From: a virus
Virus record (IMG/VR): IMGVR_UViG_3300046532_002069
Span: 1-32,099 of that record
Strand: one strand, 5' to 3'
DNA: 32,099 bases
Shown here: positions 7,257-27,483 of the stretch, in pieces
Numbering within the stretch: position 1 is the first letter of the stretch
How the letters are laid out: every line of letters starts with the position of its first letter
Translations under genes and position numbers: made by a program
The notes under the pieces: generated by a model
Database searches by the model: none
The model's input: only the letters and a program-made list of their open reading frames with translations
What the model was told of the DNA's origin: nothing

Positions 7257-8740
7257 TAAACAAACGTAATGTGAATTTTACCGTTCACGCCATTTGTTGA
7301 AGTATGATTTCCAGCCGTGCCACGATCACTATCTGAAGAATTTCCGGCAGTCGTACCAGAGCCGCCCGTTAGAACCTTATTGGTGACATCGGCATGGGAA
7401 TTGTATCCTGAGCCGCCGCCTGATGCGCCAGTATTGGCTGGGCCACCGCCAAAATAACCACCGCCACCAGAAGAAAAAACTTGGTCAGCGGCGTAACTTC
7501 CAGAAATAGCTCCCCTCAAAGAGAGTCCCGTAATGCCCGTATTGTTCCAGTTCGCGCCAGTACCTCCAGCGGTTTGAGTCCCACCCGTACCATCTTGTAC
7601 GCCTTTTGGATTCCCGCCATCTTGACCCGAGGTGCCACCGCCTGCACTACCACCAGAATTATTTGCGCCGAATCCACCCGCGCCGCCGCCGCCAGCGATC
7701 ATCAAAACGTCTGAGCCGTGTGTGTAGTCTGTCGCGCCCTTGCTGCCCGTAAAAAATCCGCTGTAGCCACCACCGCCAGCGATCCAAGTCGAGTTCGTAT
7801 TGGCTGCATTTCCGCCCAGAGCTAACCAAGTTGAGCCAAGTGTCGTGTACCCGCTTCCTTTTGCAATTCGTAGACCGCCCTGCCCAACCCTGAGGGTATA
7901 GGTAGTGCCTGTCGCTAGATCGTATGTTCCCGAAGCGTAGCCGCCAGCGCCACCAAAGTCCTTAGCGGCGGTAGCTGGGGAAGAAAAACCAGTAGTGGTC
8001 TGGCTGGACGAGCCACCCCCACCCCACATTTTGATATTAATAGTTTTAGCTGCGTCTACAGTGAATGTCCAAGACCCGTAGTCGGCCATCGTGAGTGTGC
8101 TGGCTGAAAAATAATGTTTCAACGCGCCATTTACGTTTGCATCAAATTCCATATACCCAGAAAAAACCAGCGAAAGAGTCGAAACTGCTGGGCTAAAAAG
8201 CACACCATCGGATGCTTTTGCACGAAACTTTAGGGTGGTTGTTCCGTGTGCCGCATTGGTGGAGGGCGTTAAAGTGAAAACCCCACTGCTTTCAGACACG
8301 GCTGTAAGAGCCGTTGGCAAGGACGCAGAGTTATATACCGTTGTACCCTGCACTGCGTCCCAATCGTAAGTGATCGGGAATCCTGATTCGTCCACCGCCG
8401 CCATCGTTAAAGTTGAGTTACTCCCAGAAGTAAGAGTGAGAGTCGCGGGGGGCGTAGTGGTTAAAGTAGGCCCGATTTGAGGTCCGACCGCAACTCTCTC
8501 CCACGCGCTGGTTGTCCGTAAGTAAAGTTCGTCAGCAGCAAGGTCATACGCCAGATCACCCTCAGATGGGCTACTCACTGCATTGATTGCTGTCAGATTG
8601 GAGTAGGTCGTTACGCCAGAACCGCCACCTCCACCCGCATCTGCGAAACTAAAAGCACTACCACCCTGAGATGTTAAAACTTGACCGCTAGTGCCGTCAT
8701 TAATAATATTTCCAAGTTTGCTGAGGTCAACCGTAGACAT
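7256..8740 (-). CDS. Glycine-rich tail-fibre adhesin (494 aa)
   Basis: Likely receptor-binding fibre. Residues 1-60 form an N-terminal attachment-type region (DLSKLGNIINDGTSGQVLTS, then a GGGGG linker). About 88-190 look like an Ig- or cadherin-like β-domain (LTTTPPATLTLTSGS...FPITYDWDAVQGTT...FRAKASDG). From about 215 the sequence matches the pattern of the Gly-rich domain family: WTFTVDAAKTINIKMWGGGG, then GGAGGYASGTYDLATGTTYT and LRVGQGG, then many GGGG and GGAGGFG stretches to the end. Comparable polyglycine-helix domains form host-recognition tips in some phage adhesins and in ALK/LTK receptors. The start abuts the upstream stop exactly (TAA then ATG). Domain names are assigned by motif and the receptor is unknown. 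Confidence 0.72.
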   Translation of the reverse strand: MSTVDLSKLGNIINDGTSGQVLTSQGGSAFSFADAGGGGGSGVTTYSNLTAINAVSSPSEGDLAYDLAADELYLRTTSAWERVAVGPQIGPTLTTTPPATLTLTSGSNSTLTMAAVDESGFPITYDWDAVQGTTVYNSASLPTALTAVSESSGVFTLTPSTNAAHGTTTLKFRAKASDGVLFSPAVSTLSLVFSGYMEFDANVNGALKHYFSASTLTMADYGSWTFTVDAAKTINIKMWGGGGSSSQTTTGFSSPATAAKDFGGAGGYASGTYDLATGTTYTLRVGQGGLRIAKGSGYTTLGSTWLALGGNAANTNSTWIAGGGGYSGFFTGSKGATDYTHGSDVLMIAGGGGAGGFGANNSGGSAGGGTSGQDGGNPKGVQDGTGGTQTAGGTGANWNNTGITGLSLRGAISGSYAADQVFSSGGGGYFGGGPANTGASGGGSGYNSHADVTNKVLTGGSGTTAGNSSDSDRGTAGNHTSTNGVNGKIHITFV

Positions 8741-18876: not shown

Positions 18877-19213
18877 AGGTGAGAGAGCGCCAGAAAAAGA
18901 GGCCCACGGGGGAGAACCGCAGGCCAGTTATGGGAGGAAAGCAGAAAAGAAAAGCATGTATGGGATGAGCCAGCGCCACCACAGGAGAGGAAAAGGAGAC
19001 ACTAGCTCATCATAACAGCGGTATAATAGTCAGGGGGAAGCATGTCAAGGGGTATGGGGAAGGTAGGGGGGGGTGGGGCGAATGTGTGGGGGTATATATA
19101 TATATAGACGGGGGCCAGATCGAGCGACGGGGGGGGCTGCACGTTTAAGGCAAGTTTATGTGCGCAAGATCGCCTTAGAGTGGCATTTAGCCGGACTTTT
19201 GCCGGACTTGTTG
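18877..19213. other. Intergenic region between terS and terL with G-runs
   Basis: No convincing gene. The plus strand is purine-rich from about 18880 to 19010. Between 19033 and 19136 there are eight runs of four or more G (19033-37, 19049-52, 19056-59, 19066-73, 19075-78, 19088-92, 19110-14, 19129-36) and a (TA)7 stretch at 19093-19106. The runs could form G-quadruplexes on the plus strand. A leftward promoter lies at its left part. A packaging (pac or cos) site would also be expected near terS and terL, but none is proven here. Confidence 0.6.
19020..19048 (-). promoter_or_regulatory. Candidate late promoter for terL and the structural operon
   Basis: On the minus strand a perfect -35 TTGACA (19043-19048) is separated by 17 bases from TATACC (19020-19025). 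Transcription would start about 135 bases before terL, leaving a pyrimidine-rich leader. The G-run tract lies immediately upstream of, and partly within, the promoter spacer. No matching operator (ATGAATAA) is seen here, so it may be controlled differently from the early promoters. Confidence 0.6.
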
Positions 19214-19561
19214 CTAATCGTCTGGCTTTTCCGGCGTAATATCAATTAGTTGCGTATCGTCTGGCTCTCTCTCTGGAAGCGAATCAGCAATACGCGCCGC
19301 TACTTCGCCAAGGGCCAGGGCAAACGCGCTGCCCTCACCGCCAAGCGATACTTCCTGAGGCACGAATTTGCTCAGCTTTGACAGCGTACCGGCTGCATCT
19401 ATTTGAATTTGCTCAGCTAATAGCTTGTCTAAGGGATGGCCGTTCTTCTTGCATATGTCCAAAGCGCTGTAGATTTCCTTGCGCAATCGCTGCGTGATAT
19501 GCGCTGCACCGCCTGACCCAACTGGGCGCCCGGCTTTTCTCTGTGGCTTTAATTCGCCCAT
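19214..19561 (-). CDS. terS: Probable terminase small subunit (115 aa)
   Basis: Placed upstream of terL in the same direction. The N-terminus has a basic AGRPVGSGG segment like an AT-hook or the flexible N-terminus of TerS-like proteins, then helices (HITQRLRKEIYSALDICKKNG, HPLDKLLAEQIQIDAAGTLSKLSKFVPQEVSLG). The PLDxLLxxxxxD...LxKLxKFVPQEV layout recurs in phage proteins often annotated as TerS or as hypothetical. The C-terminus is acidic (ERE, DDTQLIDITPEKPDD). A clear helix-turn-helix is not obvious. AAGGA lies before the start at 19561. It may be the first gene of the late region; its own promoter was not identified. Confidence 0.55.
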   Translation of the reverse strand: MGELKPQRKAGRPVGSGGAAHITQRLRKEIYSALDICKKNGHPLDKLLAEQIQIDAAGTLSKLSKFVPQEVSLGGEGSAFALALGEVAARIADSLPEREPDDTQLIDITPEKPDD

Positions 19562-19656
19562 TTGCTTGATTTTCCTTTAAATCGTATTGGTTGCCAAACA
19601 AATATTGATAATCGCCAAAAAAAGCAAGCCAATCACATTTTATATGCATTTTATGC

Positions 19657-19686
19657 TTTACAGGTGTATTCGTTTATGAATAATCT
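19657..19686 (+). promoter_or_regulatory. Candidate promoter of the rightward small-gene island
   Basis: A -35 TTTACA (19657-19662) is followed after 18 bases by -10 TAATCT (19681-19686). The 17-bp operator-like sequence at 19672-19688 covers the spacer end and the -10, as at the early lytic promoter near 29.17 kb. The first gene starts 27 bases downstream. Confidence 0.5.
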
Positions 19687-19688
19687 AC
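19672..19688 (+). promoter_or_regulatory. Operator-like site, copy 1
   Basis: GTTTATGAATAATCTAC matches 15 of 17 positions of the palindromic site GTATATGAATAATATAC at 29164-29180, and the match continues into CCTA on the right. It overlaps the candidate -10 of the rightward island. Probable binding site for the phage repressor or Cro; inferred from the repetition and position. Confidence 0.6.
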
Positions 19689-19712
19689 CTATATAAAGAG
19701 AGAGGAAAGACA

Positions 19713-19862
19713 ATGTTTACAGCAATAGCAATCATCGGACTTTGGGCAATCACACCAACACTAATATTTGCAGCGCTCAGGTTTGACGCTGAGGCAAACG
19801 AAGCGCTTTCAGGTTTGGCAGTTATCCCTTGGACGCTTTTTGGTTTGTATCTGATTACGTGA
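19713..19862 (+). CDS. Small membrane protein, first gene of the rightward island (49 aa)
   Basis: A 49-residue frame with two hydrophobic segments: MFTAIAIIGLWAITPTLIFAAL at the N-terminus (residues 1-22) and LSGLAVIPWTLFGLYLI at residues 32-48, linked by a polar stretch (RFDAEANEA). It is a likely two-pass inner-membrane protein. The ribosome site (GAGAGAGGAAAGACA before ATG) is almost identical to that of three other genes in the island. Its stop codon begins the 78-bp direct repeat. I do not recognise a family. A holin-like role is conceivable by size and topology, but no lysin lies beside it. Confidence 0.65.
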   Translation: MFTAIAIIGLWAITPTLIFAALRFDAEANEALSGLAVIPWTLFGLYLIT

Positions 19863-19937
19863 CGCATCGTTTTGCAGCGCTTCGGCGCTGCATTGCCATG
19901 CGCCAAAGCATGTAACAAAGAGAGAGGAAAGAAAATG
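19860..19937 (+). repeat. Exact 78-bp direct repeat, copy 1 (leader with hairpins and ribosome site)
   Basis: Identical over all 78 bases to 20752-20829. It contains a hairpin GCAGCGC-TTCG-GCGCTGC (19874-19891) with a cUUCGg tetraloop, a second small stem CATGC/GCATG (19897-19912), the ribosome site GAGAGAGGAAAG and the ATG of the next gene. No U-tract follows the hairpin, so it is not a standard terminator. It may act on mRNA stability or translation. Confidence 0.9.
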
Positions 19938-20723
19938 ATTTTAGAGCAAACAATTGCGGCGATGCTGACAGAAAACACTGGTACACATATGCTAGACAGT
20001 GGCGGCGCGAATGGTCGCGCTTGGCAGCAAAACATTGGCAAAACTATTGATGACTTCCGCGCCACTCCTAGTGCAACAGCCGAAATATATGTGCGCGAAT
20101 GGAAGGGCGAGACTGTTGCAGAAGTATTGCCGTGTGTAGATGTGTTTCACCTCTTAACGGGCGGCGCTATAGAATTGGACGAATTATGCCGCGAATTTAA
20201 CGCCTTGCCCGTGGAAGATTGGAAGGGCGAGTTTAGCGGCGTTTCAATGGCTGGAAGTGAATGGCTTGATTTGCACGGCTTTGCCGCAAAAGGCGAGGCA
20301 TTCAATACTTATAATTGGGCAGCAAATCATAGCACCATAATGCAGGGCAGCGAATTGACGCTTGACGGTGAGTATGGGGAAGAAACATATTTACTATTGC
20401 AAATACATGGCGGCGCTGATGCGCGCGGCGGCTATACTGATGCAAGGCTTTTCAAGCTCGATGACCATGCGGAAGTCTACAACGTGCTGACAGAAGATTG
20501 CGGTTTTTCCGCTGATTTGTCTGACGTAGATACAAACACAAAAGATATGTTCACTGGTCAAACCCGTGACGGATTTATATCGCTTTCGTGGCATGGCGAG
20601 TGGATCAACAGCGAAGGAAGCGCCGCAAATAACGCAGACTTACTGGCCTTTGCCACGGCTTGCGGCGCGTCTGTTGATACTTCCACGGTTCGCATCGCTG
20701 GTGATGCATATCTGGACTTTTAA
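19935..20723 (+). CDS. Conserved phage protein of unknown function (262 aa)
   Basis: The N-terminal TGTHMLDSGGANGRAWQQN (near residues 15-34) matches a widespread family of phage proteins with a T-G-x-H-x-x-D-S-G-G-x-x-G-R-x-W signature and no proven function. The remainder is acidic, with a central EFSGVSMAGSEWLDLHGF-like stretch, ETYLLLQIHGGADARGGYTDARLF near residue 155, and a C-terminal half ending in AGDAYLDF. No membrane segment is seen. The start at 19935 is preceded by GAGAGAGGAAAGAAA; the frame is open 21 codons further upstream, but that part is the repeated leader and is unlikely to be translated. Second gene of the repressible rightward island. Confidence 0.7.
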   Translation: MILEQTIAAMLTENTGTHMLDSGGANGRAWQQNIGKTIDDFRATPSATAEIYVREWKGETVAEVLPCVDVFHLLTGGAIELDELCREFNALPVEDWKGEFSGVSMAGSEWLDLHGFAAKGEAFNTYNWAANHSTIMQGSELTLDGEYGEETYLLLQIHGGADARGGYTDARLFKLDDHAEVYNVLTEDCGFSADLSDVDTNTKDMFTGQTRDGFISLSWHGEWINSEGSAANNADLLAFATACGASVDTSTVRIAGDAYLDF

Positions 20724-20751
20724 ATAGATGACAATCGCTATCAAATCACAA

Positions 20752-20829
20752 TGACGCATCGTTTTGCAGCGCTTCGGCGCTGCATTGCCATGCGCCAAAG
20801 CATGTAACAAAGAGAGAGGAAAGAAAATG
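20752..20829 (+). repeat. Exact 78-bp direct repeat, copy 2
   Basis: Same 78 bases as 19860-19937, ending at the ATG of the following gene; hairpin at 20766-20783. The copies lie 892 bases apart and bracket the 262-aa gene, so recombination between them would cleanly delete that gene. A short ATGACAATCGCT at 20729-20740, before this copy, reappears as the start of the 38-aa gene at 21141. Confidence 0.9.
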
Positions 20830-21141
20830 TATTTATATACAGAAGCGAAAACAATCGCCAAAGAAGCGCTAGAGCAAGCTGGCGGGTGCTTTGAAACTGC
20901 CCAAGACTTTTTACACCAATCATGTGATGGGCATGAAGTATCCATTTATTATTATAAAGCCATTCAATTCTGCGCTGACCAGAACACTCGCGATGGTGAG
21001 GATTGGCTAGAGGATTGTGGCGGCTTATCCCAAGAGGGCGACACTTTCGGCTCGATAGCTTGCCGCATTGCTTTTGCAACACTGTTTGTGAGGTCACAAG
21101 ACGCATTAAACGAAATGCAAGACGAGCTTGAGCTTTGTTAA
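20827..21141 (+). CDS. Unknown acidic protein of the rightward island (104 aa)
   Basis: I do not recognise a family. The sequence is acidic and helical, with seven cysteines spread over the chain (ALEQAGGCFETAQDFLHQSCDGHEV, AIQFCADQ, EDCGG, SIACR, and a C-terminal Cys) and no membrane segment. The start at 20827 is set by the repeated leader with GAGAGAGGAAAGAAA; the upstream frame extension encodes the same repeat-derived peptide as before the 262-aa gene and is not expected to be made. It ends in a TAATG junction with the next gene. Small acidic early proteins are often host-takeover factors, which is only a possibility here. Confidence 0.6.
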   Translation: MYLYTEAKTIAKEALEQAGGCFETAQDFLHQSCDGHEVSIYYYKAIQFCADQNTRDGEDWLEDCGGLSQEGDTFGSIACRIAFATLFVRSQDALNEMQDELELC

Positions 21142-21257
21142 TGACAATCGCTGACCTAATCCAAATTGCCAAGCAGACAACGCCTTTAGAATGGCTTGCA
21201 TGCTTGGCGTTATTTGCCGCGCTATTTGCGGCGCTATGCCTGGAGGCTTTGCCGTGA
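21141..21257 (+). CDS. Single-pass small membrane protein (38 aa)
   Basis: A 38-residue frame whose ATG overlaps the preceding stop (TAATG). The N-terminus is polar (MTIADLIQIAKQTTP) and is followed by one hydrophobic helix WLACLALFAALFAALCLEAL at residues 18-37. Its stop overlaps the next start by four bases (GTGA). Both junctions and the open frame favour real translation, but there is no strong ribosome site of its own, so coupling is needed. No family recognised. It could pair with the coiled-coil protein encoded next. Confidence 0.5.
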   Translation: MTIADLIQIAKQTTPLEWLACLALFAALFAALCLEALP

Positions 21258-21391
21258 CACCAGCCGAAAAAATCGCACAGCTACAGCGCCATCGCGCTGA
21301 GCTAAAGCACCAAATTGAACGGCTAGAGGCTAAACGGGTTTACGCCCAGAGCGAGATTGCTATACTGACTAAGAGAGAGGAAAGACAATGA
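21254..21391 (+). CDS. Small coiled-coil protein with GTG start (45 aa)
   Basis: Starts at GTG 21254-21256, with GGAGG exactly seven bases upstream, overlapping the previous stop. A frame extension to an ATG at 21191 is possible but would overlap the membrane protein and lacks a ribosome site. The product is a single charged helix (PAEKIAQLQRHRAELKHQIERLEAKRVYAQSEIAIL) with heptad-like Leu and Ile positions, so a coiled-coil dimer is likely. Its last codons (TKREERQ) also encode the ribosome site of the next gene, and the stop makes an ATGA overlap. Confidence 0.55.
   Translation: MTPAEKIAQLQRHRAELKHQIERLEAKRVYAQSEIAILTKREERQ
21371..21390 (+). promoter_or_regulatory. Repeated ribosome-binding leader (20-bp copy)
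   Basis: AAGAGAGAGGAAAGACAATG here is identical to 19696-19715, and differs by one base from the ends of the two 78-bp repeats. Four of the six island genes thus share the same initiation region. Here it lies inside the 3' end of the coiled-coil gene. Confidence 0.85.
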
Positions 21392-21636
21392 TACCAATAT
21401 TTTCAGACAATCCAGCCCGTGAAATTGACCAGAAAAATAATGCTTGGGAAGTTTTACTAAGAGAGATTTGCACGTCATCTTTAAAGCCTAGCATTGACGC
21501 AGATGAGTTTTGCGACGCTGTACTTGATGAGATGCATACTGGCGAAGCTTACAAAAGCGCAGATGGTACGCCTTTTTATCATGAGATTGGCAAAGCTTAC
21601 ACTACAAGCGGTTTGCCCGTTGTAGTGTCAGCCTAA
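21388..21636 (+). CDS. Unknown small protein, last gene of the rightward island (82 aa)
   Basis: No family recognised. Sequence is mixed α/β and acidic: IFSDNPAREIDQKNNAWEVLLREIC, then DADEFCDAVLDEMHTGEAYKSADGTPFYHEIGKAY. It starts at the shared GAGAGAGGAAAGACAATG leader with a 4-base ATGA overlap. Its TAA overlaps the stop of the leftward gene on the other strand (21633-21636), leaving no room for a terminator between the two convergent operons. Confidence 0.6.
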   Translation: MIPIFSDNPAREIDQKNNAWEVLLREICTSSLKPSIDADEFCDAVLDEMHTGEAYKSADGTPFYHEIGKAYTTSGLPVVVSA

Positions 21637-22148
21637 CGCGCCATTCCAAAGTAATCCCCAAGCGCGTCTAATGCCAATCGCAAAGCCACGATTCCACCCT
21701 TTGGACCGTGGCTTTGTCGTTGCCCCCAATCAGCCGCAGACATGCCTTGTATAGCCACCCATTGCGCTACGCTTGATAGATCTACCCCGATTGCCTTTAA
21801 CGCGCTCATGTAAGCGCTGAACGCCTCTCCTGACGTTTCACCGCCTGACCCTGACCCGTCTACGCGCACGGCTTCATAGTTTACCGTTTTTACGCCACGG
21901 CCTGCCTTATGCCAAATTCTGTAAAGTTCAACGCCAGCATCATATTGCCTTTTCGTTATTTGTTCACGCTGCTTGTATCTGTCTAACAAAGTTTGCGTGG
22001 TTATCCTTGCTCGCTTTGCACCGCCAAGCATTTTTGCATCCACTGGCTCGACGCTGATCCCGTCTGGGCCGGCATGCCAGACGCGCTGATCGTTTGGCCT
22101 CTCGCCGCGCTCGACCGGCTTATTGATCGGCTTTTTTTGTTTTGCCAT
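21633..22148 (-). CDS. DUF6456-like protein (171 aa)
   Basis: The pattern RITTQTLLDRYKQREQITKRQYDAGVELYRIWHKAG, followed by YEAVRVDGSGSGGE, a helix with SAYMSALKAIG and a final GGIVALRLALDALGDYFG, resembles DUF6456-type proteins of alphaproteobacteria and their phages. Function is unknown, though DNA-related roles are suspected. The start chosen is ATG at 22146-22148 with GAGG six bases upstream; an ATG 14 codons earlier (22190) would overlap the previous gene by 71 bases. The N-terminus is very basic (MAKQKKPINKPVERGERP). Last gene of the leftward early operon, with its stop overlapping that of the convergent island. Confidence 0.6.
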   Translation of the reverse strand: MAKQKKPINKPVERGERPNDQRVWHAGPDGISVEPVDAKMLGGAKRARITTQTLLDRYKQREQITKRQYDAGVELYRIWHKAGRGVKTVNYEAVRVDGSGSGGETSGEAFSAYMSALKAIGVDLSSVAQWVAIQGMSAADWGQRQSHGPKGGIVALRLALDALGDYFGMAR

Positions 22149-26056: not shown

Positions 26057-26668
26057 CTAAAATGGTATCTCATCATCTTGAAAATTGCCGCTTTGCGAGT
26101 CTGTCTTTGGCGCTGTCGGATTGCCAAACGGATCGCTTGCTTCATCTGCAAATGGATCATCTGCCTCGCTAAACGGATCGCTCTCAACGCGCTCTTTAAG
26201 CTCGACAACCTTTACCGCTTCTGGCCGCAACGTGACGCCAGATTTGCCTGCATATTTCCACGGCCGTACGCCGATCATTACGTGTACTTTGCTGCCTGTT
26301 GTAAGCTGAAAGTCTTGCGCTGCTATCGACCCGTCTTGCATGAATTGCTTGGGCTTGCTGCTTGCTTCTCCGTATGATTTTTTCGTTAGCTTAACGATCC
26401 AAGCCTTTTCGTCTTGCTTGAATACATCGCTCAAGCCTTTTGGCGACCAATCGGGCCAGTCATCGCCACGCTTTTCGCTAAAAGATTTTCGCATGACGCC
26501 AGCAAGCTCTTTGGCTTGAGCTTCCGTAACGATCAGGTTTAACTCATATTTACCCTCTTGATCTGTCTGCGTTTCGCATGCAACACTCCGATTTTGCATC
26601 GGGTCAAACTTGTAAAGCTTGTCCAGCTTAGGCCAGAGTGCTTCGACGTTTATCAGTTTGTGGTTCAT
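26057..26668 (-). CDS. ssb: Single-stranded DNA-binding protein-like (203 aa)
   Basis: An OB-fold-like β-rich core (SVACETQTDQEGKYELNLIVT, KAWIVKLTKKSYG, KVHVMIGVRPWKYAGKSGVTLRPEAVKVVEL) and a Ser/Asp/Pro-rich, acidic C-terminal tail ending in DDEIPF. That acidic tip is the hallmark of SSB and T7 gp2.5-type proteins and recruits partner proteins. The start is set at ATG 26666-26668 with GAGAGGGAAAG upstream; an ATG eight codons earlier would overlap the preceding gene. With the RecE-like exonuclease upstream it probably forms a recombination and replication set; a gp2.5-like strand-annealing role is possible. Confidence 0.72.
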   Translation of the reverse strand: MNHKLINVEALWPKLDKLYKFDPMQNRSVACETQTDQEGKYELNLIVTEAQAKELAGVMRKSFSEKRGDDWPDWSPKGLSDVFKQDEKAWIVKLTKKSYGEASSKPKQFMQDGSIAAQDFQLTTGSKVHVMIGVRPWKYAGKSGVTLRPEAVKVVELKERVESDPFSEADDPFADEASDPFGNPTAPKTDSQSGNFQDDEIPF

Positions 26669-26679
26669 TACTTTCCCTC

Positions 26680-27483
26680 TCATTCCAGCCATGCTGGAAG
26701 TTGCGCGACGTGAACTGCAGGCCAGCCCGTCGCATATGTTTCTGTTTGGATTGCCTGTTCTATCCGTGCTAGGATTTCTTCAACTTGCGTTAGGCTGTGC
26801 GCCATAAGCTCTGGCCCAACCTCAACTAAGCTCGTTGCGTAGGGCGGCTCTTTTTCTACGTTGGCGAATAAAAAGCGGTCACACCGTAAGCCAGCAAGCT
26901 CCAAGGTTCGCTTGTACCAAGCCGCTTGAAATGCGTACTTGAGCTTGTACATCTGGCGTTCGAATTCATAAGGCTCAGCGCTGATTGTTGTCTTGAGATC
27001 GACCACAATACCCTGACTTTGGATCATCAGGTCAGGCCGTGCTTTTAACGCCAGTGACGTGTTGTCGTGCGCTGCGAATATGCTGGCCTCTGCCACCTTG
27101 TCTTTGTGGCCCAGCAAAAAGCCTATCTGTGGGCTTTCATGCAATGCATCGACCATGCCGCTAACGCGCTCATAGTCTGCATCAGTCAAGCACACGACGT
27201 TCATTTTTTCGGCGCGTTCAGCCGCTTCTTTCCAAGCATTGCCGCGCCTAGTCTCGCCGCCTTTGATGGGCAGTATTCCATCACCAGCCCAAGCGTGAAC
27301 TGCGCGTCCTATTTGGAAAGCTGGCGTATCTTTATAAGCTCTTGCGCAAAACGCATGGGCTATGCTTTGGCTTAATACAGATTTACCTTTGCTTGAACTT
27401 ACGGATTGCCTACCTTCGATTTCGTCAAGCGCGTGATAGACTTTATCTGATAGGCCATAATGTACACCAAATGAATACGTCAT
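26680..27483 (-). CDS. RecE/Exo VIII-like PDDEXK exonuclease (267 aa)
   Basis: Likely 5'-3' dsDNA exonuclease. The N-terminus (SDKVYHALDEIEGRQSVSSSKGKSVLSQS) and FQIGRAVHAW (H63) match the PDDEXK-like family related to RecE C-terminal and DUF3799 domains. Catalytic motifs: E132 (VAEASIF), ALKARPDLM with D151, VVDLKTT with D162-x-K164, and the following YAFQAAWYKR helix (Q186, Y190). All core residues seem intact. Its start overlaps the zinc-protein stop by four bases. No RecT or Redβ-type annealase is recognised next to it; the SSB-like protein follows directly. Confidence 0.78.
   Translation of the reverse strand: MTYSFGVHYGLSDKVYHALDEIEGRQSVSSSKGKSVLSQSIAHAFCARAYKDTPAFQIGRAVHAWAGDGILPIKGGETRRGNAWKEAAERAEKMNVVCLTDADYERVSGMVDALHESPQIGFLLGHKDKVAEASIFAAHDNTSLALKARPDLMIQSQGIVVDLKTTISAEPYEFERQMYKLKYAFQAAWYKRTLELAGLRCDRFLFANVEKEPPYATSLVEVGPELMAHSLTQVEEILARIEQAIQTETYATGWPAVHVAQLPAWLE

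Follow-up and report, generated by a model that had tools for sequence, protein, structure and literature searches.

It has long been asked how phages can exchange single small genes and keep their reading frames intact. The T4-type phages are said to contain mobile regulatory cassettes, the PeSLs (Arbiol 2010, Comeau 2014), in which a repeated stem-loop regulatory sequence was reportedly proposed as the basis of modular genome shuffling. To judge from the titles cited in PMC4503421 and PMC5931544, the T4-type PeSLs are composite promoter-terminators. In the cluster K mycobacteriophages a conserved 13-bp start-site block termed SAS (GGGATAGGAGCCC) precedes several genes, and just upstream of part of the SAS lie the ESAS, 17-bp imperfect inverted repeats that stay with the same gene family (PMC3203893). 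The RNase III site R1.1 of phage T7 is a 49-nt hairpin that drives maturation and protection of the phage mRNA (PMC8708148). Phage genomes are usually without repeats (PMC3945230).

The element described here, which we call a linker, is found in a stretch of 32,099 bases of viral DNA (the window) and in a number of its relatives. Like the T4 PeSL it is a repeated stem-loop at the boundaries of shuffled genes; unlike it, the form present in the window has neither promoter nor terminator signature and starts at a stop codon, and its hosts are unrelated small phages. Its resemblance to ESAS and SAS is that a start-site block occurs four times in the window and is accompanied by a hairpin at two of these places. 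The block is however AAAGAGAGAGGAAAGA and not the SAS sequence, and in contrast to ESAS the hairpin takes in the stop codon of the gene before it and keeps its place at the junction as genes come and go, one cargo family (F7) being present both with and without it. Since the defining features of both systems fail, the linker is a member of neither, although these are its nearest counterparts among repeated structured gene-boundary elements. As an intercistronic stem-loop of about 50 nt it is also similar to the T7 RNase III sites. We know of no report of those sites serving as repeated gene-swapping joints.

Results

Two identical units within one operon

The window is from a marine phage. The record contains portal, large terminase and primase/helicase-type genes, together with an exonuclease, a Gp2.5-like annealing protein, a CI-like repressor and a tyrosine integrase. 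The nearest portal in GenBank is only ∼50% identical. A rightward island adjoins the leftward terminase gene, and here two consecutive genes are preceded by the same 78 bp, letter for letter (19860–19937 and 20752–20829, spaced by 892 bp), as the original prediction had it. The UUCG-capped 7-bp hairpin (GCAGCGC-TTCG-GCGCTGC) and the ribosome site ending in ATG that it described are both present. Even at three allowed mismatches the window has just two occurrences of the hairpin motif, against a chance expectation of 0.11. The purine-rich ribosome-site block AAAGAGAGAGGAAAGA occurs four times in the operon (at 19695, 19917, 20809 and 21370, one with a single mismatch); it is also found without the hairpin in other phages (L014 and L015; L and F numbers refer to relatives and to cargo gene families), and was rejected as a defining part of the unit.

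The unit had been read as a gene leader. It does end at the next ATG, that of a 262-aa gene in copy 1 and of a 104-aa gene in copy 2, but it opens with the TGA of an upstream reading frame, a 49-aa ORF in copy 1 and an 8-aa mini-ORF in copy 2. As it runs from the upstream TGA to the next ATG, the unit is an intercistronic joint from stop codon to start codon and not merely a leader. The features of the region are the following.

19657–19684, + strand: promoter-like site upstream of the operon, TTTACA-16-AATAAT (consensus scan only)
19713–19862, + strand: 49-aa ORF that opens the rightward operon; bases 1–3 of copy 1 are its TGA
19860–19937, + strand: stop-to-start linker copy 1, 78 bp, the same as 20752–20829
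19860–19905, + strand: two-tier hairpin of copy 1, with outer stem from the TGA stop, internal loop, inner stem of 7–8 bp and UUCG loop (covariance model R1, 65.9 bits; fold z-score −3.95; compensatory pairs in relatives)
19906–19937, + strand: leader part of copy 1, with purine-rich ribosome site at 19917–19932 and ATG at 19935
19935–20723, + strand: 262-aa accessory gene, cargo family F17, PHROG 11344 (function unknown); behind a linker in L075 too
20728–20754, + strand: 8-aa mini-ORF MTIAIKSQ, ending at the TGA of copy 2; contains a 24-nt remnant (20728–20751) of the start of the 38-aa gene (alignment to 21141–21164)
20752–20829, + strand: stop-to-start linker copy 2, 78 bp, the same as 19860–19937
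20752–20797, + strand: two-tier hairpin of copy 2 (covariance model R1, 65.9 bits)
20798–20829, + strand: leader part of copy 2, with ribosome site at 20809–20824 and ATG at 20827
20827–21141, + strand: 104-aa accessory gene, cargo family F7; homologues in L047, L048, L058, L049 and L067
21141–21257, + strand: 38-aa gene, with which the constant part of the operon begins; homologues after accessory genes in L027 and L048
21254–21391, + strand: 45-aa gene, with overlapping starts and stops and without a linker
21388–21636, + strand: 82-aa gene that closes the rightward operon; its ribosome-site block at 21370 has no hairpin
26057–26692, − strand: putative Gp2.5-like ssDNA-binding/annealing protein, possible recombination agent (PHROG 112, E 1.7e-11)
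26680–27483, − strand: putative exonuclease, possible recombination agent (PHROG 412, E 2.6e-52; PF12684)

Distant relatives of the 262-aa protein (∼32–36% identity) occur in phages of Gordonia, Mycobacterium and Erythrobacter. Its predicted fold (mean pLDDT 74) matched no solved structure, and the above-chance matches were mainly to uncharacterised phage proteins.

Occurrence in related viruses

Searches with the portal and the 262-aa protein gave 50 related loci, several with divergent copies of the unit. A covariance model based on 30 copies, together with two search patterns, raised the total to 44 linkers, 43 well formed and one decayed, in 33 virus records. These fall into two lineages, the large terminases of which share only ∼46% identity; compared with the window, terminases are 73–82% identical in one lineage and only 43–47% in the other. 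Five cargo families (F0, F2, F5, F7 and F17) are common to both. The hairpin is missing in 9 of the 17 relatives whose sequence covers the region. The 18-bp inner hairpin alone was found in eleven IMG/VR contigs without the full unit. Among GenBank phages a nucleotide search with the island found no match, and the linker at low stringency gave short chance matches only. Seven pattern matches in bacterial genomes all lack outer stem and context, and were taken as chance. The window region matched none of 4227 Rfam models up to E 5, nor did the linkers of L088, L027 and L066 match in Rfam.

Anatomy and secondary structure of the linker

The linker folds as a two-tier hairpin. Starting at the stop codon, which forms part of it, there is an outer stem of up to 8 bp, then an internal loop with conserved G–C pairing in its middle, an inner stem of 7–8 bp and a variable loop. 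The UUCG hairpin of the window is thus the upper half of a larger structure, the lower stem of which holds the stop codon. The second stem of the original prediction exists in a different place: the conserved one is the outer stem TGACGCAT/ATGCGCCA around the UUCG hairpin, whereas the local CATGC/GCATG pairing is absent from several copies. In the predicted fold of the L088 linker a local CATG/CATG hairpin competes with the outer stem. TGA forms the first three bases in 39 of 40 hits, and in 37 of 39 well-formed copies it exactly closes an ORF of at least 45 aa, the two exceptions being the 8-aa remnant of the window and a contig end.

In a structure test (A4; 25 distinct sequences) 94.4% of cells pair, and slid versions of the structure are far worse. 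Changes on both sides are found at four pairs (4–46, 5–45, 8–42 and 16–34; seven cells), which none of 500 shuffles reaches; in most sequences pair 5–45 does not form. The first search pattern prescribed the inner stem, which was free to vary in L041, L048 and L062 (found by model or homology) and in L099–L102 (second pattern); where these freely found copies vary in the inner stem the pairing is kept, except for one cell in L102. G–T wobbles occupy five pair positions (25 cells), as against two positions (7 cells) for A–C, where six cells are at the A of the stop codon and one position is locked by that codon. The excess of G–T over A–C favours a + strand (coding-strand) RNA over a DNA palindrome, and the compensatory changes and G–U wobbles support an RNA structure.

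What follows the hairpin takes one of two forms. In form A, that of the window, a short A- or purine-rich leader of ∼30 nt connects the hairpin to the next ATG. In form B (12 copies) TTTACACTTGACC-N17-TATC comes next, together with a GATATC-type palindrome resembling the one at the front of the operon, with the next gene starting after ∼125 nt; this combination of hairpin and promoter-like sequence is the nearest match to the T4 PeSL. Because the two forms differ after the hairpin, the constant part of the linker is the hairpin attached to the upstream stop codon, the leader being exchangeable for promoter-like sequence. In form B (for example L066:7673–7800, L088:4687–4815 and ten more) the GATATC-N5-GATAT palindrome overlaps the presumed −10 region. 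Occurring both there and before the first gene, it is probably a shared operator.

Recoding of the stop codon in the manner of a SECIS was rejected. Counting on from the UGA, the fourth codon is TAG in most copies, and the spacing up to the following start codon varies and does not keep to multiples of 3; in the window the frame from the UGA into the next gene happens to be open.

The inner hairpin of L066 copy 1 (7350–7370), with loop CCGGTTTGG, reads exactly as the reverse complement of the one with CCAAACCGG in L068, L069 (minus strand, 308–362), L073 and L078, as if the palindrome had been flipped.

Turnover of genes around the joint

It had been proposed to look for other genes behind the unit in related phages. 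They are there: at least 27 cargo gene families occur around the linker in at least 28 different upstream–downstream pairs, to which four further copies bring additional pairs, and its complete absence from relatives is excluded. F0 is found with six different upstream genes and F1 with five different downstream genes. Six copies share the downstream gene but have different upstream genes, and in these identity is 24% over the last 20 nt of the upstream coding sequence and steps up to 95% over the 20 nt that begin with the stop codon. As the step is at the first base of the stop codon, the joint coincides with that codon.

The hairpin is nevertheless dispensable. The gene pair F0–F7 has it in L048, has a decayed version in L047 and none in L058, and F7 lacks it in L049 too; it is also absent from about half of the relatives. 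The idea of an exchangeable expression cassette stands in large part but not as a whole. Genes are added and turned over at the unit, but the form in the window has no promoter of its own, no promoter-like site being found inside either copy, and the unit belongs equally to the 3′ end of the upstream gene. With the same kind of gene pair present in L058 without a hairpin, a self-contained cassette is not what the comparison reveals.

The decayed linker (L047:6278–6400) has lost its outer stem and follows an F0 gene with a disturbed end, while the near relative L048 is intact. The cargo behind the linker includes a gene of the ArdA anti-restriction family in L026 (6200–6700; PF07275, E 7.9e-26), L031, L062 and L080, and a GP88 gene (PF17338) in L086. 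Such content suggests that the island serves for accessory or counter-defence genes.

An insertion scar and homogenisation of the copies

In L017, L021 and L075 the 262-aa gene is directly followed by a homologue of the 38-aa gene. In the window the 24 nt between the 262-aa gene and copy 2 (20728–20751) are a copy of the start of the 38-aa gene, and none of 2979 random stretches scores as high. Given this remnant and the uninterrupted order in the three relatives, the simplest history would be insertion of a linker plus the 104-aa gene at the start of the 38-aa gene.

The perfect identity of the two copies in the window points to recent duplication or conversion, as had been suggested, and more generally copies within one genome are more alike than those between genomes. 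The F8 genes of L026 and L027 are 96.3% identical, yet the hairpins behind them only 83.7%, while the two main hairpins within one genome are 97.9% identical in L026 and 93.8% in L027. Linkers within a genome are also closer than with shuffled labels (p 0.0004), but that permutation test is confounded by phylogeny and the F8 comparison is consequently the better evidence for homogenisation. As loops differ within single genomes of the second lineage (L066, L078, L079 and L088), there would be a tendency toward homogeneity that is not complete.

Discussion

We consider it probable, although by no means secure, that the linker is a structured stop-to-start element of the mRNA whose conserved sequence also provides homology for gene swapping. 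The transcript of the unit would fold into one two-tier hairpin of 46–49 nt that holds the UGA of the upstream gene in its foot, and the short purine-rich ribosome site after it would serve the next gene. The hairpin itself would act on the mRNA, separating and protecting the cistrons. By analogy with T7, its most plausible role may be that of an endonuclease processing site of the RNase III kind or a shield for the 3′ end. At the level of DNA, 50–80 bp recurring at gene boundaries, precisely outside the coding sequence, would present short homology to phage recombination enzymes, so that genes could be gained, lost and reordered without harm to reading frames and the copies in one genome would tend toward homogeneity. 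Phage Rad52-like recombinases are active on short, diverged homologies (PMC3945230); this, the annealing protein and exonuclease of the window and the size of the hairpin lead us to propose the double role. The element would be under selection as RNA in each operon and act as a standard joint for homologous exchange either as a by-product or as a selected benefit. Conservation suggests the processing or protection role, and gene turnover suggests the role in swapping, with homologous recombination as its presumed agent.

The main alternative within the transcript is that the hairpin serves for termination, attenuation or antitermination and so sets transcription of the operon at each linker. 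In twelve copies a second promoter-like sequence and GATATC-type palindrome follow the hairpin, as would be expected at the end of a transcription unit. An intrinsic terminator, with GC-rich stem and T-run, was however rejected since the T-run is absent behind the hairpin, and by sequence signature there is no terminator-like site anywhere in 19500–21700. With only ∼30 nt to the next start, form A leaves no space for a promoter; without a terminator signature either, transcripts must run through the hairpin, and the downstream genes need this read-through. We therefore think transcription control unlikely.

The remaining explanations place the function in the DNA, or deny it. The genes might be true mobile cassettes, moved by a recombinase acting on a folded single strand as the integron integrase does on attC. 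As with attC, the genes are closed at the 3′ end by an imperfect palindrome, form a promoterless array in one orientation and show high turnover; one loop (L066) is the exact reverse complement of the common one (L069), and a tyrosine recombinase is encoded in the window. But unlike attC the linker includes a ribosome site for the gene that follows, and membership was rejected because the GTTRRRY core is in no unit (RYYYAAC is found only as a loop match in some). The window recombinase is far away and matches the general Phage_integrase family PF00589, a family-level domain match. One upstream gene can be found with different loops, and one loop with different upstream genes, which means that the hairpin is not strictly tied to one gene, and the wobble asymmetry favours a transcript. 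A dedicated recombination site is thus quite improbable; equally so is a stop-anchored hairpin acting across lineages as an integron-like exchange site without integron parts, at which a recombinase or annealing enzyme would prefer the folded strand. A selfish or miniature element of the REP or MITE kind, inserting at stop codons, would account for a repeated palindromic unit that is found at a given gene pair in one genome and missing there in another (L048 and L058). Yet the linker is limited to gene ends in one operon and one orientation, includes a ribosome site, has only two copies in the whole window and is unmatched as a full unit in bacterial genome contigs, and we regard such an element as more improbable again. 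That the repeat is a functionless local duplication or an artefact of assembly could be argued from the perfect identity of the two copies; but independent contigs have two or three copies in the equivalent place, with conserved structure and compensatory changes, and this explanation is scarcely credible. The presence of copies at the equivalent place in relatives likewise makes an assembly error in the window unlikely.

A structured mRNA element read as a joint for homologous exchange would tie a feature of the message to genome mosaicism: it has no Rfam family and fills precisely the interval from stop codon to start codon at sites of gene turnover, and it looks like a standard connector for gene swapping among these viruses. 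It also flags an island of accessory genes, including the ArdA family, in uncultured phages, and can be used as bait for more of them.

Two further observations were made in these genomes. In the gap between terminase and island of the window (19040–19130) there is a G-rich stretch and then an alternating TA run, with similar G-rich stretches in the equivalent place in L058, L066 and L088; this is possibly a packaging or replication region. Behind homologues of the 262-aa gene in L016 (3742–3810) and L022 (2468–2545) there is a different two-tier hairpin, present in single copies in the stretches seen. Its outer stem is GATTGYAT/ATGCAATC, and the two examples have differing inner stems and share ATGCAATCCCGCRTG; it may be a second, unrelated type of linker.
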